28,778 nucleotides of DNA from a virus. The notes beneath the pieces were generated by a model that worked only from the letters and a program-made list of their open reading frames with translations, was not told the origin of the DNA and did no database searches. This document shows positions 14,771 to 28,161 of this stretch, in pieces (the stretch's first letter is position 1; the number at the start of each line of letters is the position of its first letter). A program made the translations under genes and the position numbers. The stretch spans positions 1-28,778 of IMG/VR virus record IMGVR_UViG_3300030106_006139; one strand, 5' to 3'.

Positions 14771-17700
14771 ATGGCATCTAGTCTAAATGCAACTTTAAAT
14801 GTTCAACTAAACCCTCAAAGCCTGAATGCTTCGGCAAAGCAGGTTCAACAGGCTTTAGGTAGGATTACAGGGCAAGCATCTGAGTTTCAAAAATCTCTAG
14901 ATGCTTCTACAGCCCGTGTTTTTGCATTCGGTGCCACCACTGTTGTTATAAATGGCGTAACACAATCATTTAAAAAGTTGGTAGCTACAACAGTAGATGT
15001 CCAGAAGAGATTAGTAGAAATTAACTCCATTTTCCAAGCTAGTGAACAAACTTTCAATAAGTTTAGGAATTCTATTTTTCAAGTAGCTAAAGACACTGGG
15101 CAATCTTTCGCTACTGTCGCTGATGGCGCGGCAGAATTAGCTCGTCAGGGTTTAAGTGCAGAGGAAACAGCGAGTAGGCTTAAATCTGCATTAATACTTA
15201 CTAGGATATCTGGCTTAGATGCAGAAAAATCCGTTAAAGCATTAACTGCTGCTATCAATGGTTTTACTTCTGCGGGTCTTTCAGCTAATCAAATTGTCAA
15301 TAAAATGGTAGCGGTAGATACAGCTTTTGCCGTATCAACTAACGATCTAGCAGAGGCTTTCACGCGAGCAGGTTCTACAGCAGAGGATGCTGGAGTGTCT
15401 TTTAACCAGTTGTTGGGTCTCATAACGGCGGTCGAGCAAAGAACTGCTAGAGGAGGTGCTGTTATTGGTAACGCATTTAAATCAATTTTTACTCGTCTTT
15501 CGAGGGGGACTACAATAAGTTCACTACAGGAGCTTGGTGTTGAAATTGATGCAACTCAAACTGGTGTTCAAAAATTACAAGCCCTGTCTAATGCTTTACA
15601 AAATATCGCAGACCCGACTGTTGTTTCAAAGATAAAGGAATTAGCGGGTGGAGTTTTCCAGATAAACGTAGTTAGTGCAGCTTTAAAAGATATTGGTAGT
15701 CAAACTTCGATTTTTGCCAAAGCATCTGAGACGGCTGCTAGCGCGACAAACGAAGCTTTAACTAAAAATAAAGAGCTTAATAAAACAATCGCCGCCCAAA
15801 TAAACTCTCTTGTGCAAGGTGTTACTAGCCTAGCGGAAAGGGTTGGGGCAATTACTTTTGGTCCTTTATTGGAAAATATTATCGGTATAGCGAGTAAGCT
15901 TAGTAATTTCTTAGATAAAGCTTTAGACCCAGAAAAAGGCAATGTTTTTATTAAAGGTTTATTCAAAGCTATAGGTTCGTTTTTGAGTGGGCCAGCAGTG
16001 ATTATATTTACAGCCGCATTTGTTAAAATATTTAAATTAGTTGCTAAGTTCGCAGGAGAGGGTTTAAAAGCCCTCTTCTCAATGGGAACTCAAAGTGAAA
16101 AGATAAGAAGTATAGAGGGTGGGATTGTCGCTCTATTGCAAAAAGACGAAAATTTAAGAAACCAAATAAATGCCTCTACTACGAGTCAGGCTCAAAAAGA
16201 ACAGTTGATTATTGATGCTATAAGGCGAGAGAATGCCTTGTTGATGCAACAAGCTCAAATTGTTCGTAGTTTGGCTGCTGGCGCTGCTGCAAGGGGGGTA
16301 ACTGGTTTTGGTGCTAGTGGGTTTACAGGTGGAAGAGGCAGATTTAGTATGGGCTTTAGGGCAGAAGAAGCAGAGGCAAGGGCGCTAGGAGCACCTGCTA
16401 ATGTTAGGGCTAGATTAAGTCAAGGCACTATTAATGGTGAAAGGGCTATAATAAACGATAAAGAGATAGAAGTTCGCAACTTCATGGGAGGCAAAGACTC
16501 TGCTATAATTCCGACTTACGCGAGAGGCTTTGTCCCAAATTATGCGGGCGTTGGAAGCATATCGGCAGGTGCTAATAGGCGTGACACTCTGGCCAATATT
16601 ATAAGGGGAGGTAGGGCTGGATTAAAGGGGCAATTCCAAAGAGGAATTGGAGACCTCTCTGTGGAAGAGGCTAATGCAGCATTAAAAAGGGGGAGAGACT
16701 CAAGGAGAGGCCCAGCGGCAGCAGCACAACAATTCAGGAATGTGATGGTGGTAAACCCCAACACAGGAGGAATGCTTATCCCTACAATTCAGGCTAAACT
16801 CAAAATCGCACCAAGAACAAAAGGAACCTATAAGGGTAAGGGTAATAAGCCAGTTCATTATGAATACCAGCATGGAATGCCTGTTCATGGACCGCAAGTT
16901 CCTCACGCAGTTGATCAAGCCGCAGACCCAGAGGACGAACAGTTAAAGAAAAATATAACTAAAAAAGTTACTGAAGAAGCTAGAAAATTTGCTGCTCTGG
17001 TTCATCCAGTTTTAGGTAAGCCTAAGCGTTCGGAAATAGAAAGCATGCTCAAGTCCCAAGGAGGAGGCAAGGGGGCATTAAAGGGTATAATAGGGGCTGC
17101 TTTCGAAGCGGCAGTTAATGTCGGATTGGATCTAAGCCCAGCTAAAAAAGTAGAGGGGGGAGACTTTGATGTAAAGAAGCTTGAGTTCGAAAAGATGGAT
17201 AAGATTAGGGATTTATTCGGAATCAAAAATGCCAAAAGAAACTTGCTTGATTTCAAGCATGATATGACTGACGGGACAGTAGGTAGCTTTGCTAAAAAAT
17301 TAGTTAACGAGGGAAAATTTAAAGTAGAAAAAAGACCTCTTAAGAGAGCGCGGAAGTCGATGGGTTTTATACCTAATTACGCTAGCGGAGGTGGCGTTCC
17401 TCAGTCTTTAATGAGGATACACTCTGATGATAAGGGGAGACAGGTTCTGACAAATATAAGAGATGAGCCTAACGGGGTGCAAGACGCTATAAAGAGAGAG
17501 CGCAAGGGTATTGGCATGTTTGCTAGCGGTTTTGTTCCTAACTATAACGCAGGAGATACAGGAATGAAAGGAGAGATGAGGCTGATGGCTCTCTCTTCGG
17601 CATTCATGGCTCTTCAGGGGGCGTTAATGTCAGTTGAAGCAAATTATGAGCAATCAATAGCTGTTCAAGAATCTGATATAGAGTCTAAGAGAAATTTAAT

Positions 17701-20242
17701 AATGGCGAGCGATGAGGAATTCGGCGCTAAAATGAGGGCTATAAATTCGCTAAATAAAGAAGCTAATCAAATTGGCAAAACAACACCAACATTAGTTTCT
17801 TTAGCTAAAGGGGCAACTGTAGCTACTAATGCGTTAATGGCTATGGCTGCTCTAAATATGGTTACAGGCGGTGGTCTGGGTAGATTGGGAGGTAGGGCAT
17901 TAGGGGGAGTTGGCAGAGGTATGGGTAGATTCTTTGGTGGAGCGGCCCGAATGACGGGTATTTCTGCTGGAGCTAGGGCTGTTAAGGGGATGGGCAGCAG
18001 AACGATGGCCAAAGGTAAGAGCCTCTTTGGTGCTGAGGCCCGAAGGGCAGCGGGTAGGTCGAGGGCTGGATTACCAAAAGGGGGAGCCGTTGAATTTAGG
18101 CAAAATTTAATAAAGCAAGGCGCTACACCTGCTCAGGCTTCTCACTTAACAAGGCAGAAGCTAGCAAGCACTGCTACCACAAGAGGGGTTAAAAGTAGTG
18201 CAGGAATGAAAGCAGCAAGAGGGCTTGGGCGATTCGGAGGCGTTGCTGGAGTTGCTTTAGGAGGTTTTGAGATAGCGAGCATCTTAAGAGATGATAGTTT
18301 AGACAGGAGAACAAAGAGAACTAAAGTAGCAGGAGTCGGCGGGGGAATGGCTGGAGGTCTCGGTGGCATGAAGCTTGGAGCAATGGGGGGAGCGGCAATA
18401 GGCAGCGTTGTTCCAATCGTAGGAACTGCTGTAGGAGGTATAATCGGAGGGTTAGTTGGAGGATTAGCTGGATGGTTTGCTGGGAAGAAAGGGGCTGAAG
18501 CAATAGCAGATGGGATTCAGGGTTCTGGAGCAGATCCTGAAGCAGCTTTCGAAGCTGGCACTCACAAATTTATTTCAACGCTAGGTTTTAAAAGGTCGGC
18601 TCAAGGGGATCGTGATGCGGCAACCGTGTCTAATGACGCTTTTTTTGATAGGGTAGAAACTGTTCAAGCGAGAATGAAAAAGGAAGGAGTTCCTCAATCA
18701 GAGCTTAACACAATGAATCAAGAATATCTAGCGGCTCAAAAAGAATTAAATGAAGCAACAAAAGCAGAGACAGAACAAAAGAATAAATTTTTTGGAAATA
18801 AAAAGAAAGAGGAAGAATTAACTCAAGCAAGATTAGAAGCAGAGGAAAAACTTGAGCAAGCTGCTAGAAGGTTAGCGGGTGTAAGATTCAAAGAAGCTGG
18901 TGAATTTGAGACTGTAATGGATCGCCAACTCGACTTTGAAGATAGGTTGGGGAAAGCTAAAGCTACTCTAATTGATTCGGAGACAAAACTTTCTAACGCT
19001 ATAAGTCAAAGAACTAGTTTCGAGTTGCAATTAGCTCAGGTCTCTAAAGGTAAGTTAACTACAGGGCAACTTGAGATTAACAAAGAGAGGGCAAACATAA
19101 TGTCTGGGCTTATGGTAGATCCTCGTTTGGAACACGCTAGAGGGGCTACGGCAGCGAAGCGTCATAATAAAACATTTGATGACTTAGCTCAGCTATCTAT
19201 TGCAGAATCAAAATTAAAAGGTGAATTACAAGAAGCCAAATTAAGAGACGCTCAAAGAAATAAATTTGGAGGAACCGCAGAAGGTCGCGCAGAAATAGCA
19301 GAAATTCAAAAGAAGCTTAAGGCCGCTGGTGTTAGTTTTAAAAACGCGGCCCACCAAGCTGGTATTAGTTTTAAAAACGAGATGTTGCAGCTTGAGGTGG
19401 CGATGGAAGAAAATCAGAAGAAACTTCTAGAAGCTAGAAAAACCGCTGAAAAGAAATTTATAGATTCTGTGTTCGGAAAGGATGACATAGGAGGGGCATC
19501 AGCAGATGAAGAGATTGGGCAAAACATAAAAGGCATGAACGATGTGCTTAAGCAGATCACAAGTCTTGAGGGTAGAGTTAAGAGAGGTAACTTAGATCGA
19601 AGAACTGCTGAGATGTATCTAAAGCCCTTGAGAGAGCAGCTTCGCCAAGAATACCAAAGAACCACCGATTCTATGGATCGTGGAGGATACGGTGATGTAG
19701 ACAAAATAGATGCAATAGTTGGTATATCGAAAGATATGGGCCTTCAGGCAAGTATGACCGTTGACACTCTTTCAAGAATTGCCAATACACTTGATAAACA
19801 ACACACAAGAGGAAGAGGCGATATCCGTGCTTCTGCTGGAGATGCAGTCGGTAGATATATGCGAGGACAAAGTGGGGCGCTTGCGATTGCTCAAGGAGGA
19901 AATCCTGAAGAAGCAACAAAAGACCTTGTTAAAGAGCAAGAAGCATTAAGGGGCGAAATGGTTGCGGTAACAGAAGCTTGGGCGAGATTCAATAAAGATG
20001 AAAAAACTCGCCCAATGGCAAGGACAGTGCAGAAATATAAAGACGAGCTTGATAAAGCGGGTGAAAATCTAGGAAACCTTAATGTGTTTATTGATAAAAA
20101 CATGAACACAGCAGAACAGACTTCCGACTTTATAAAAGCAACCAACGATTTATTAGCGACCTCAACTGACAGAATTAATGAGTTGATTACTATTGTTAAT
20201 GATCAAAGACAAGACATAAAAGATATTCTGGACGAAAAATAG
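14771..20242 (+). CDS. Tail tape measure protein with inserted domain
   Basis: The tape measure sets tail length and is ejected ahead of the genome. This one has 1823 residues. Residues about 60-330 match the phage tape measure core of the TP901 type: a helical array with QVAKDTGQSFATVADGAAEL, an ARQGLSAEE turn, and later RGGAVIGNAFKSIFTRLSRG. A hydrophobic helix follows at 405-425. Residues 500-930 are Gly/Arg-rich and hold three GFxPNY repeats (586, 865 and 920) around an insert at 720-845 with possible nuclease residues E779, D798/D800 and D827-x-K829. Residues 1030-1240 are again Gly/Ala-rich, ending in a glycine-zipper stretch (1187-1240) that could enter membrane. The remainder to 1823 is charged coiled coil. 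At about 1.5 angstrom per residue, a known rule of thumb, the tail could be near 270 nm; inserted domains would make the real tail shorter. Confidence 0.92.
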   Translation: MASSLNATLNVQLNPQSLNASAKQVQQALGRITGQASEFQKSLDASTARVFAFGATTVVINGVTQSFKKLVATTVDVQKRLVEINSIFQASEQTFNKFRNSIFQVAKDTGQSFATVADGAAELARQGLSAEETASRLKSALILTRISGLDAEKSVKALTAAINGFTSAGLSANQIVNKMVAVDTAFAVSTNDLAEAFTRAGSTAEDAGVSFNQLLGLITAVEQRTARGGAVIGNAFKSIFTRLSRGTTISSLQELGVEIDATQTGVQKLQALSNALQNIADPTVVSKIKELAGGVFQINVVSAALKDIGSQTSIFAKASETAASATNEALTKNKELNKTIAAQINSLVQGVTSLAERVGAITFGPLLENIIGIASKLSNFLDKALDPEKGNVFIKGLFKAIGSFLSGPAVIIFTAAFVKIFKLVAKFAGEGLKALFSMGTQSEKIRSIEGGIVALLQKDENLRNQINASTTSQAQKEQLIIDAIRRENALLMQQAQIVRSLAAGAAARGVTGFGASGFTGGRGRFSMGFRAEEAEARALGAPANVRARLSQGTINGERAIINDKEIEVRNFMGGKDSAIIPTYARGFVPNYAGVGSISAGANRRDTLANIIRGGRAGLKGQFQRGIGDLSVEEANAALKRGRDSRRGPAAAAQQFRNVMVVNPNTGGMLIPTIQAKLKIAPRTKGTYKGKGNKPVHYEYQHGMPVHGPQVPHAVDQAADPEDEQLKKNITKKVTEEARKFAALVHPVLGKPKRSEIESMLKSQGGGKGALKGIIGAAFEAAVNVGLDLSPAKKVEGGDFDVKKLEFEKMDKIRDLFGIKNAKRNLLDFKHDMTDGTVGSFAKKLVNEGKFKVEKRPLKRARKSMGFIPNYASGGGVPQSLMRIHSDDKGRQVLTNIRDEPNGVQDAIKRERKGIGMFASGFVPNYNAGDTGMKGEMRLMALSSAFMALQGALMSVEANYEQSIAVQESDIESKRNLIMASDEEFGAKMRAINSLNKEANQIGKTTPTLVSLAKGATVATNALMAMAALNMVTGGGLGRLGGRALGGVGRGMGRFFGGAARMTGISAGARAVKGMGSRTMAKGKSLFGAEARRAAGRSRAGLPKGGAVEFRQNLIKQGATPAQASHLTRQKLASTATTRGVKSSAGMKAARGLGRFGGVAGVALGGFEIASILRDDSLDRRTKRTKVAGVGGGMAGGLGGMKLGAMGGAAIGSVVPIVGTAVGGIIGGLVGGLAGWFAGKKGAEAIADGIQGSGADPEAAFEAGTHKFISTLGFKRSAQGDRDAATVSNDAFFDRVETVQARMKKEGVPQSELNTMNQEYLAAQKELNEATKAETEQKNKFFGNKKKEEELTQARLEAEEKLEQAARRLAGVRFKEAGEFETVMDRQLDFEDRLGKAKATLIDSETKLSNAISQRTSFELQLAQVSKGKLTTGQLEINKERANIMSGLMVDPRLEHARGATAAKRHNKTFDDLAQLSIAESKLKGELQEAKLRDAQRNKFGGTAEGRAEIAEIQKKLKAAGVSFKNAAHQAGISFKNEMLQLEVAMEENQKKLLEARKTAEKKFIDSVFGKDDIGGASADEEIGQNIKGMNDVLKQITSLEGRVKRGNLDRRTAEMYLKPLREQLRQEYQRTTDSMDRGGYGDVDKIDAIVGISKDMGLQASMTVDTLSRIANTLDKQHTRGRGDIRASAGDAVGRYMRGQSGALAIAQGGNPEEATKDLVKEQEALRGEMVAVTEAWARFNKDEKTRPMARTVQKYKDELDKAGENLGNLNVFIDKNMNTAEQTSDFIKATNDLLATSTDRINELITIVNDQRQDIKDILDEK
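16526..17548 (+). repeat. Three GFxPNY repeats in the tape measure
   Basis: GFVPNYA (residues 586-592, bases 16526-16546), GFIPNYA (865-871, 17363-17383) and GFVPNYN (920-926, 17528-17548) share a heptapeptide but use different codons at many positions, so selection acts on protein. Each lies after a small/basic residue run (TYAR, KSM, FAS). Similar GFVPNF-type repeats occur in other large phage tape measures, from memory. They may be processing sites, hinges or binding loops. Confidence 0.75.
16928..17305 (+). other. Embedded domain in tape measure, candidate PD-(D/E)XK nuclease fold
   Basis: Residues about 720-845 of the tape measure have a composition unlike the surrounding Gly-rich linkers. 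A helix with Glu (GIIGAAFEAAVNVGL, E779) is followed by GGDFDVKKLE (D798, D800), a helix, then NLLDFKHD (D827-x-K829) and another helix. Helix-Glu, strand-Asp, strand-(D/E)xK, helix is the order of the PD-(D/E)XK superfamily. Spacing is short but within what that diverse group allows. The identification is by eye and needs a profile or structure comparison. Confidence 0.4.
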
Positions 20243-25717: not shown

Positions 25718-28161
25718 AAGAGGGCATAACAAAAATAGATCTAAATTTTAGTAACAGTGGGAGTGGACACACCGCTTCTGTTTCTAGTGTTCTCAATGCT
25801 AAAAATATACAAAATGGTTCTGATGGTTTGGGCGCTGTAAGAGGATCTATAGGAGATGTTGGAACCTTTTCTCATCCAGAGATACACGATATGATGAGTT
25901 CTTTTGTTTGCACCGAAACCACAACGTCAAAAGACTCAACTAAGACTTCAATTTCAAGAAAGTATGTAGATAGAGTATCTAGACTATTAAAATCTTATAT
26001 AGTTTTAGTTAGAGGTAAAAATGCAGGTCCAGAATCTCCAGAGTATGAGGGGCCAATCCCATTTTTTACTGAGGTTAGCAATAGTCCGTTGCCGTCATTC
26101 AAGAGCGAGGGTCCAAGGCTTTATAGGGATAAGTCTGTTATCTTGGCTGGTAGAATATATAATATGGAATCAGCAACAACATATGAAGGGTTTAAGCTGA
26201 CTCTGGTTTATAATAATAAAAAATTAGTAACAGATCTCTGTGTTAATGAAGAGTTTTGTAGCCCTCAATATAAGGCGAGTCCTGATTTAGCTCAGTTTGA
26301 CTTAAAATTAGGTTATACTGCTGCTGACTTTATTCAAATGCTCGCCCTTATAGGTATTAATGTAGACGGCATTGAGCCAAGGGAAGATATTTTATTTGAA
26401 CAAAGTGGGACTTTAGATTCGGTAGTATCTTCTATTGCTTCTTTTTATGGTTTCTACTGGTTTGTAGATCCAAAAACAATGACCATAAAATTTGTTGACA
26501 CGGCTTCAGCTTCCATGATGAAGGTAGAGAACTTTACAGAGACAGGAGATGAAGGTGTTGTAAGTGCGAGTTTTACAGAATCAGAAACCGTTGACAAAAA
26601 TATAAATGTTTACATTGGAACAGCAGAACAAAAAGAGGACCAAAGTCAAAACGAAAGGGAGCATAGGGGGAGAAAGGTTTATTTTAAAGCTTTAAGTATG
26701 AGCAAATTACTGTGCCTTAAACCTCATATTGGGCTAAGAGCACTTGATAAGAATAAGAATGATAAATGGTGGTTAGAAATAGGAATTTTATTTGGGATAT
26801 TTAATCAGGATGAGGGGGAAGATTGCTTTAATAAAATGATTTATTATTTAAGTCACTTAAATCAAAGACAAGTTCGGGGCCAAGATAGTGAGTTTGAAAA
26901 GAAATATGGAAGAAGAATGCTTCTTAGAAACCTTTACAAAGACGCGCCTTGGTCTTGGGCTACTTGGCACTTTTATACTCAATTCGGAGGCAAGCTCGCT
27001 ATATATAGAAACGAACAGGCGGCGAAAAACAATAGAAAAGCCAAGACTAAATTTGGCAACATGGATAGGATCAAAAATCGTTATCAATACAAGACCCTTA
27101 TGAAAAATAAGGATCAAGCTATGGAGGTTCCTTCTGCTTCAGAGCTTTACAAAATTCTCAAATTGTTTTTTGCCTTAGCTGGTGGGTTTTATATATCAAA
27201 TGCATATAGTGCTTATAGAGTAGATAGAATGATAATGCAAAATTCAAATAGAGCCAATGTAATAGGCCCATTCCACAGAAAAGAGTGGATTGGAAATATT
27301 CCTGAGCTTGCGGAATTGTCTGATTTTTTTGATGCTTTAGGTTTCCCAGATGTAACAATAGGGGGATTAGCTAGGTTGACTGAAGGAGAGGCTCGGCAAA
27401 CTCATGACTTTCATTGGGTCGCAATTAGAAACATTAAAAAACTAACAAAAAATGCTAGAAACAGGGTTCCATACGACAAGGTTATAATGGAGTTTATGGA
27501 GATTGTAAACAGTTTCGGGCAAGGGGCGGCTCACCTTGACGGAAAGTCTTTTTTAGGAGTTCCTGCCAAGTTTAAAGCTGAATGGGTGTGGAGACTTACC
27601 GATCAATCTTTGAAAAACTATGAAAAAATAAAGGACATACCAAAAAGGTTGCCCATTAAGTATGAGAGAAGCAAGACTCGCGTTAATAGATTAGACGAAG
27701 ATGGAGAAGAAGAGGAGGATAACAAAATTGCATCAAGCGATTCTAATGCAAATAAAATGTCTGAACTTTTTGATAGATTTGATTTTAAAGCCTTTGGAAT
27801 TGATGGCCCAGTCCATAGCCCGCTAAATAACTTGAGCCTACAATCGGCATCAGGGTCAACAACTGAAATGGAGGCTTTGAGGTTAGCAAGGCCAACGCAA
27901 ATTGCTAGCCCGACTCATAGACCTTCTAGTTCTAGTCGAACCATATATGGTCTATTTATACCTGAATTTAATGAGTTGACATCAAATGTAACGATAAGCT
28001 TGAGTTCGGGTGGTGTTCAAACAACAATTACAGAATCTTCTATTAAGTTAATACCACCAGATCAGCAAATATTCACAAATCAAGGTATGGAGGTTTTAGC
28101 TAAAAAGTCTTTCACTCCAAGCAGAATGGCAGCAAGGCAAAGAAATGCTCTAGGATACTGA
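25714..28161 (+). CDS. Baseplate hub / tail-associated protein
   Basis: This 815-residue protein is the last of the tail operon. Residues about 80-270 carry a hub-like region: RLYRDKSVILAGRIYNMES, then LKLGYTAADFIQMLALIGI at 198-216, then LFEQSGTLDSVVSSIASFYG (227-246) and FYWFVDPKTMTIKFVD. The pattern of 'loads a short helix, then a strand pair with a Phe/Tyr-Trp-(F/Y)-V-D-P turn' is typical of phage hub proteins of the gp27/late-control D type. A long helical and charged middle follows (290-720), with an unusual Trp-rich patch (DAPWSWATWHFY). The C-terminus returns to strands (SSGGVQTTITESSIKLIPP). The hub closes the tube and leads the tape measure into the cell. The hub label is fairly good; the role of the large middle is unknown. 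Confidence 0.6.
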   Translation: MKEGITKIDLNFSNSGSGHTASVSSVLNAKNIQNGSDGLGAVRGSIGDVGTFSHPEIHDMMSSFVCTETTTSKDSTKTSISRKYVDRVSRLLKSYIVLVRGKNAGPESPEYEGPIPFFTEVSNSPLPSFKSEGPRLYRDKSVILAGRIYNMESATTYEGFKLTLVYNNKKLVTDLCVNEEFCSPQYKASPDLAQFDLKLGYTAADFIQMLALIGINVDGIEPREDILFEQSGTLDSVVSSIASFYGFYWFVDPKTMTIKFVDTASASMMKVENFTETGDEGVVSASFTESETVDKNINVYIGTAEQKEDQSQNEREHRGRKVYFKALSMSKLLCLKPHIGLRALDKNKNDKWWLEIGILFGIFNQDEGEDCFNKMIYYLSHLNQRQVRGQDSEFEKKYGRRMLLRNLYKDAPWSWATWHFYTQFGGKLAIYRNEQAAKNNRKAKTKFGNMDRIKNRYQYKTLMKNKDQAMEVPSASELYKILKLFFALAGGFYISNAYSAYRVDRMIMQNSNRANVIGPFHRKEWIGNIPELAELSDFFDALGFPDVTIGGLARLTEGEARQTHDFHWVAIRNIKKLTKNARNRVPYDKVIMEFMEIVNSFGQGAAHLDGKSFLGVPAKFKAEWVWRLTDQSLKNYEKIKDIPKRLPIKYERSKTRVNRLDEDGEEEEDNKIASSDSNANKMSELFDRFDFKAFGIDGPVHSPLNNLSLQSASGSTTEMEALRLARPTQIASPTHRPSSSSRTIYGLFIPEFNELTSNVTISLSSGGVQTTITESSIKLIPPDQQIFTNQGMEVLAKKSFTPSRMAARQRNALGY

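Follow-up and report, generated by a model that had tools for sequence, protein, structure and literature searches.

A tape measure protein (TMP) encoded in a virus record of 28,778 bases, the whole of which is referred to hereafter as the window, carries an internal domain whose sequence is rewritten between related phages while a small set of catalytic-looking residues remains almost invariant, a combination which suggests that, together with their DNA, the phages inject a nuclease that can be changed. The domain, hereafter referred to as the cassette, is interpreted here, with a probability of roughly one in two, as a nuclease-like domain that depends on metal and has a PD-(D/E)XK-type site on a divergent fold, and that would be delivered with the TMP, cut nucleic acid at entry and be exchanged by recombination. 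TMPs are usually regarded as rulers and membrane conduits. If the above interpretation is true, the TMP is a vehicle for enzymes that enter the cell with the genome, and the cassette offers a direct test of phage action on host or rival DNA before the expression of any phage gene.

The tape measure protein and the distribution of the cassette

The open reading frame at 14771-20242 encodes a TMP, as judged by the matches to Pfam PhageMin_Tail and to several PHROGs tail-length TMP families, the location of the profile over the N-terminus, the very long reading frame and the position in a tail module. Upstream of the TMP gene, the structural module encodes the large subunit of a terminase and a capsid protein that was matched weakly. 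The features of the gene outside the cassette are as follows.

14771..20242, + strand: TMP gene, 1823 aa; Pfam PF10145 (PhageMin_Tail) E 2.6e-24, several PHROGs TMP families with a lowest E of 1.5e-37
14771..16525, + strand: conserved N-terminal part of the TMP (residues 1-585), 73-96% identical to the related TMP L004 (identity profile, 60-aa windows)
17444..17554, + strand: VLTNIRDEPNG...GFVPNYN (892-928), a conserved module that follows the cassette (sequence)
18329..18493, + strand: Gly-zipper-like hydrophobic stretch (1187-1241) (sequence)

The Gly-zipper-like stretch is, by analogy with published Gly-zipper segments (PMC10240207), possibly a membrane-inserting segment of the TMP. A [TFVI]N[ILTV]RDEPxG module, which lies directly 3' of the cassette in the window (17444-17476), recurs in 43 of the 128 TMPs described below and matches no known motif.

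A search of IMG/VR with the TMP N-terminus identified 80 relatives, and further scans added more. The domain is embedded in the TMP, as the earlier note on this DNA had proposed, in no fewer than 108 phages: of 128 nonredundant TMPs with a length above 900 aa, 108 contain a homologue in the corresponding position, as detected by an iterated profile. When the contigs of IMG/VR were all scanned for motifs with the cassette alignment, 34 relatives were retrieved, every one of them at a TMP locus; 18 of these, mainly new ones, were looked at closely, and 17 carry the TMP N-terminal profile while the remaining one is a 5'-truncated contig. The TMPs with the cassette belong to a large group of uncultured aquatic phages. 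Ten TMP relatives were located in genome bins of bacteria, for the most part MAGs and most often of Flavobacteriia, viral contigs in bins being weak evidence for a host. A tblastn search of 50,697 phage records with four different cassettes gave no match. A suspected resemblance to Pelagiphage HTVC008M was irrelevant, its annotated TMP being a T4-like protein of 687 aa. No report of a nuclease-type cassette inside a TMP reading frame was found in the open-access literature, which is weak evidence of absence.

Conservation of the catalytic-looking residues

The earlier note had assigned a PD-(D/E)XK signature to E779 (codon 17105), D798 (17162), D800 (17168), D827 (17249) and K829 (17255), all of which are present at these positions of the 1823-aa reading frame. 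Their conservation was examined in 83 homologous domains with less than 70% identity, a set which, being collected by profile, is biased toward agreement at conserved positions; despite this bias, the contrast between the signature columns and the rest of the domain is very large. The background-corrected conservation score places D800, E779, F778, K829, D/E827 and G775 on top, followed by K/Q843.

17072..17116, + strand: GALKGIIGAAFEAAV (768-782), helix; G775 in 82/83, F778 in 78/83, position 779 E in 80 and D in 3 of 83 (alignment and model)
17156..17173, + strand: GGDFDV (796-801); D800 in 81/83, position 798 D in 24/83 (alignment)
17240..17263, + strand: NLLDFKHD (824-831), strand with the (D/E)xK motif; D/E827 in 83/83 (62 D, 21 E), K829 in 82/83 (alignment and model)
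17297..17299, + strand: K843, 72 K and 9 Q of 83; helix after the (D/E)xK strand (alignment and model)

Thus, since the signature residues are the top-scoring columns among the homologues, the pattern is more than a chance arrangement. Free variation of E779, D800, D827 and K829, which would have spoken against the signature, is clearly not what the homologues display, and these four positions of the proposed signature are retained. D798 drops out of it, the position being occupied by P, T, R, N and others wherever it is not D. A nucleotidyltransferase reading of the GGDFD stretch was rejected on the same ground, namely that D798 is not conserved. The conserved E in a helix, the D and the (D/E)xK follow one another in the order of the PD-(D/E)XK enzymes, and the exchange of D and E at the third motif position is typical of that superfamily. 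Among closely related cassettes, a median dN/dS of 0.20 over 25 pairs reveals purifying selection.

Extent and predicted fold of the domain

The unit of about residues 720-845 that had been suggested in the earlier note is too small, as the domain starts near residue 652.

16724..17344, + strand: swappable cassette domain (residues 652-858), N-terminal beta region and nuclease-like core; AlphaFold2 pLDDT 91.1, pTM 0.84; homologues in 108/128 TMPs
16766..16783, + strand: GGMLIP (666-671), N-terminal strand of the domain (model); xMLVP motif recurrent in homologues

An AlphaFold2 model of residues 708-864, which is without the N-terminal part, reached a pLDDT of 75.0 and a pTM of 0.53 only. An xMLVP segment recurs in the homologues about 40-60 residues upstream, and a second model, which includes the segment (residues 652-866, alignment of 74 sequences), is a confident compact fold with the values given above. 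The order in the model is a beta-rich N-terminal part, helices, the helix with E779 (764-785), a short bridge beside D800, a further helix, the strand with D827, the helix with K843 and a last strand. DSSP assigns the E-helix, the DxK strand and the subsequent helix and strand, with only a one-residue bridge near D800, and a clear beta1-beta2 hairpin is absent.

The structural match to PD-(D/E)XK enzymes that had been predicted was not obtained. Foldseek searches of the confident model against PDB and BFVD gave no match, and a second look with VIA returned unrelated chains only (best Z 4.0), although a nuclease missing from the lists for the good model does not exclude a nuclease fold. The searches with the poor first model, VIA included, gave nothing relevant.

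Relation to the PD-(D/E)XK nucleases

The cassette resembles the GxxFE-type PD-(D/E)XK enzymes (Hjc, Mrr_cat, YraN) in having G-x3-E in a helix, a D, (D/E)xK on a strand and K/Q in the next helix, in the same order and with the same spacing. It differs from them in its fold, which needs the N-terminal beta region and has D800 separated from the (D/E)xK strand by a helix, and in being without a Foldseek match or profile similarity to YraN and Mrr_cat. In hhalign comparisons with the YraN and Mrr_cat alignments the probability was below 1%, whereas YraN against Mrr_cat, the positive control, gave 96.5%. When the domain and 41 or 74 relatives were compared with Pfam, PHROGs, NCBIfam, PADLOC and PDB sequences, no family matched, and the few scattered matches were to single members. 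One such single-member match, to the ThaI restriction enzyme (E 0.12), was taken as chance.

A detectable profile relationship to the known families, which supports rather than strictly defines membership in the superfamily, was therefore not found. Since the active-site pattern is strong, yet neither fold nor profile matches, membership is not established, and the domain has either a very divergent PD-(D/E)XK fold or another fold with a convergent site. The best reading of the cassette is that of a new nuclease-like family which would enter the host with the TMP, act catalytically there and find its target in DNA.

Exchange of the cassette between related phages

The cassette is bracketed by two copies of a short motif.

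16526..16546, + strand: GFVPNYA (586-592), upstream bracket, directly followed by a collapse of the identity among related TMPs (identity profiles)
17363..17383, + strand: GFIPNYA (865-871), downstream bracket, at which the identity with L004 is restored (identity profiles)

In 60-aa windows the TMP of the window and that of L004 are 73-96% identical up to GFVPNYA, about 22-27% through the domain and highly identical again from GFIPNYA. The TMPs L010 and L012 share 98% identity over the N-terminus but 23% over the cassette, the corresponding values being 97% and 13% for L165 and L162, and the opposite direction is seen in L144 and L036 (N-terminus 39%, cassette 59%). Over 5,778 pairs the rank correlation between the identities of the TMP N-terminus and of the cassette is only 0.17, and the median pairwise identity between cassette domains is about 20%. 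PNYA-like motifs flank both sides in 73 of 112 cassettes and in none of the shuffled sequences. While a chimeric metagenome assembly could mimic one swapped pair, it could hardly produce a recurrent pattern with the same borders. On these sequence comparisons, the domain behaves as a swappable cassette that occupies one fixed position in the TMP, between GF[IV]PN[YF] motifs.

The genes flanking the L010 and L012 TMPs within about 6.5 kb are all 91-97% identical, and the deepest drop of identity inside these TMPs is the stretch 601-920. Their contigs (79.7 and 58.8 kb) are syntenic, the exceptions being the cassette, a block resembling sugar metabolism and some small genes. The comparison of the two contigs (L354-L360) places the sugar-metabolism-like module, the main differing block besides the cassette, at about 33.5-43 kb in G087; a gene of 289 aa at 27121-27987 is only 39.5% identical.

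Copies of the GF[IV]PN[YF]A motif (16526, 17363 and 17528 in the window) recur along the TMPs and bracket the cassette in the relatives also; they are possibly processing sites, assembly contacts or recombination anchors.

The sharp exchange borders in conserved flanks, together with the retention of the catalytic residues while the remaining cassette changes, are compatible with a selfish homing-type element that would cut the TMP gene of co-infecting phages with another allele and spread by repair from the resident copy, the diversity and the sharp borders then being the result of allelic gene conversion and not the mark of an injected effector. In phages, homing endonuclease genes often target the TMP gene, where they are carried by introns or stand free, and swapping of nuclease domains is documented (PMC10448857). 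The cassette shares with the homing endonuclease genes of ICP1 the location of a nuclease sequence inside the TMP locus and its exchange between phages, but in ICP1 an intron-borne HNH gene is spliced out, whereas the cassette is an in-frame domain of the mature reading frame (PMC10448857). Neither empty alleles near occupied ones nor an intron, an intein or a free-standing gene was seen, and no known homing family was matched. Homing is thus disfavoured because the in-frame presence of the cassette in a structural protein is nearly universal, and we consider it quite unlikely.

Inside the tail the end of the genome is in contact with the TMP, and the domain might act on the own genome of the phage at entry or packaging by end trimming, nicking or branch resolution. 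Enzymes of the PD-(D/E)XK type include resolvases and packaging nucleases, and a virion head-completion protein with a restriction endonuclease fold is known (PMC7824862). A conserved housekeeping step is hard to reconcile with cassettes that are 23% identical in sister phages with structural genes 91-97% identical, and such a role appears improbable because sister phages exchange their cassettes.

Proposed function

We propose that E779, D800, D/E827-x-K829 and K/Q843 form a metal-dependent active site on a divergent fold which matches no known structure. The cassette would be built into the tail as part of the TMP and would probably enter the host with the genome or just ahead of it, the Gly-zipper segment possibly helping, and it would most likely cut the nucleic acid met at entry, be it DNA of the host, of a prophage, of a plasmid or of a competitor. 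The sequence of the cassette would be changed by recombination at the GF[IV]PN[YF] motifs of the conserved flanks, and such changes would presumably alter its specificity or allow escape from inhibitors. Conflict with inhibitors, DNA modification or rivals may be what drives its variability. If so, the cassette would account for part of the extreme variability of the central region of TMPs in aquatic phages.

Delivery by the TMP is consistent with the behaviour of the lambda protein, which, while the genome is injected, touches proteins of the host inner membrane and of its cytoplasmic side, and which the defence nuclease SNIPE senses (PMC13190303). The proposal complements that finding, in which a host nuclease binds TMPs and strikes at this very point (PMC13190303). 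On the other side, a folded domain of 200 residues would probably need unfolding to pass the tail tube, and this speaks against the proposal, as does the lack of a PDB or BFVD match, of similarity to YraN or Mrr_cat, of a sequence family match, of a clear hairpin and of a co-swapped immunity gene.

A nuclease-derived structural domain that binds metal or DNA would explain the missing nuclease fold match. It would hold on to the end of the genome or to a protein of the host inner membrane, and would vary so as to match host partners or to escape TMP-binding defences such as SNIPE, and it is known that TMPs dictate the host inner-membrane partners, are bound by SNIPE and give escape when changed (PMC13190303). 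Pure binding leaves the near-invariant E, D and D/E-x-K unexplained at the low median identity of the cassettes and is disfavoured because the active site is conserved; we regard it as unlikely, and prefer the metal-dependent nuclease-like domain.

Enzyme-like domains in TMPs have precedents in tail-associated lysins and transglycosylases (SPbeta YomI type), in which N-terminal TMP homology is likewise detectable. Such domains act on the cell wall, whereas the cassette has a nuclease-type signature and is exchanged. The identity profiles and the pair statistics reveal an exchangeable domain on a conserved carrier, as in polymorphic toxins, toxicity being putative in the present case. Polymorphic toxins and T6SS DNase effectors such as Tde1 similarly combine a conserved carrier with an exchangeable nuclease-type domain, and Gly-zipper segments are common to Tde1, where they serve translocation, and to TMPs (PMC10240207). 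The cassette differs from them in being internal and not C-terminal and in having a virion protein as its carrier; in addition, the comparison of the L010 and L012 contigs revealed no co-swapped immunity-like gene beside the TMP.

Other contents of the slot

Other sequences occupy the slot in some TMPs. In the TMP L075 (reading frame from 6312), the nuclease is replaced at slot residues ~600-960 by a stretch (SDLHAGNIMISNDG ... VVDPGHF) that looks kinase-like by eye only and had no match in Pfam. A second nuclease-like layout (RGDIMEDAL ... GQYAADAIAEKIALEVKSGEY) is found in the same slot at L068:8433-9158, in a TMP without the main cassette, and had no match in the phage records. A GNAT-like segment (RGKGYGRELYEYMAKYAKRNGYGGLYG...) lies in the slot between PNY motifs at L175:8298-8732, the match to Pfam Acetyltransf_1 (E 0.022) being below the cut-off.

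It is conceivable, and we advance it tentatively, that the TMP is a carrier of polymorphic injected effectors, with one slot that holds mostly the new nuclease-like family and elsewhere other enzyme-like domains such as the GNAT-like (L175) and kinase-like (L075) segments, which would be shuffled in the manner of the polymorphic toxins of bacteria and, as the genome enters, act against the host or competitors.

The second cassette copy of L074 is without an equivalent of D800; two copies of the cassette per TMP are present in L063, L074, L084 and L210.
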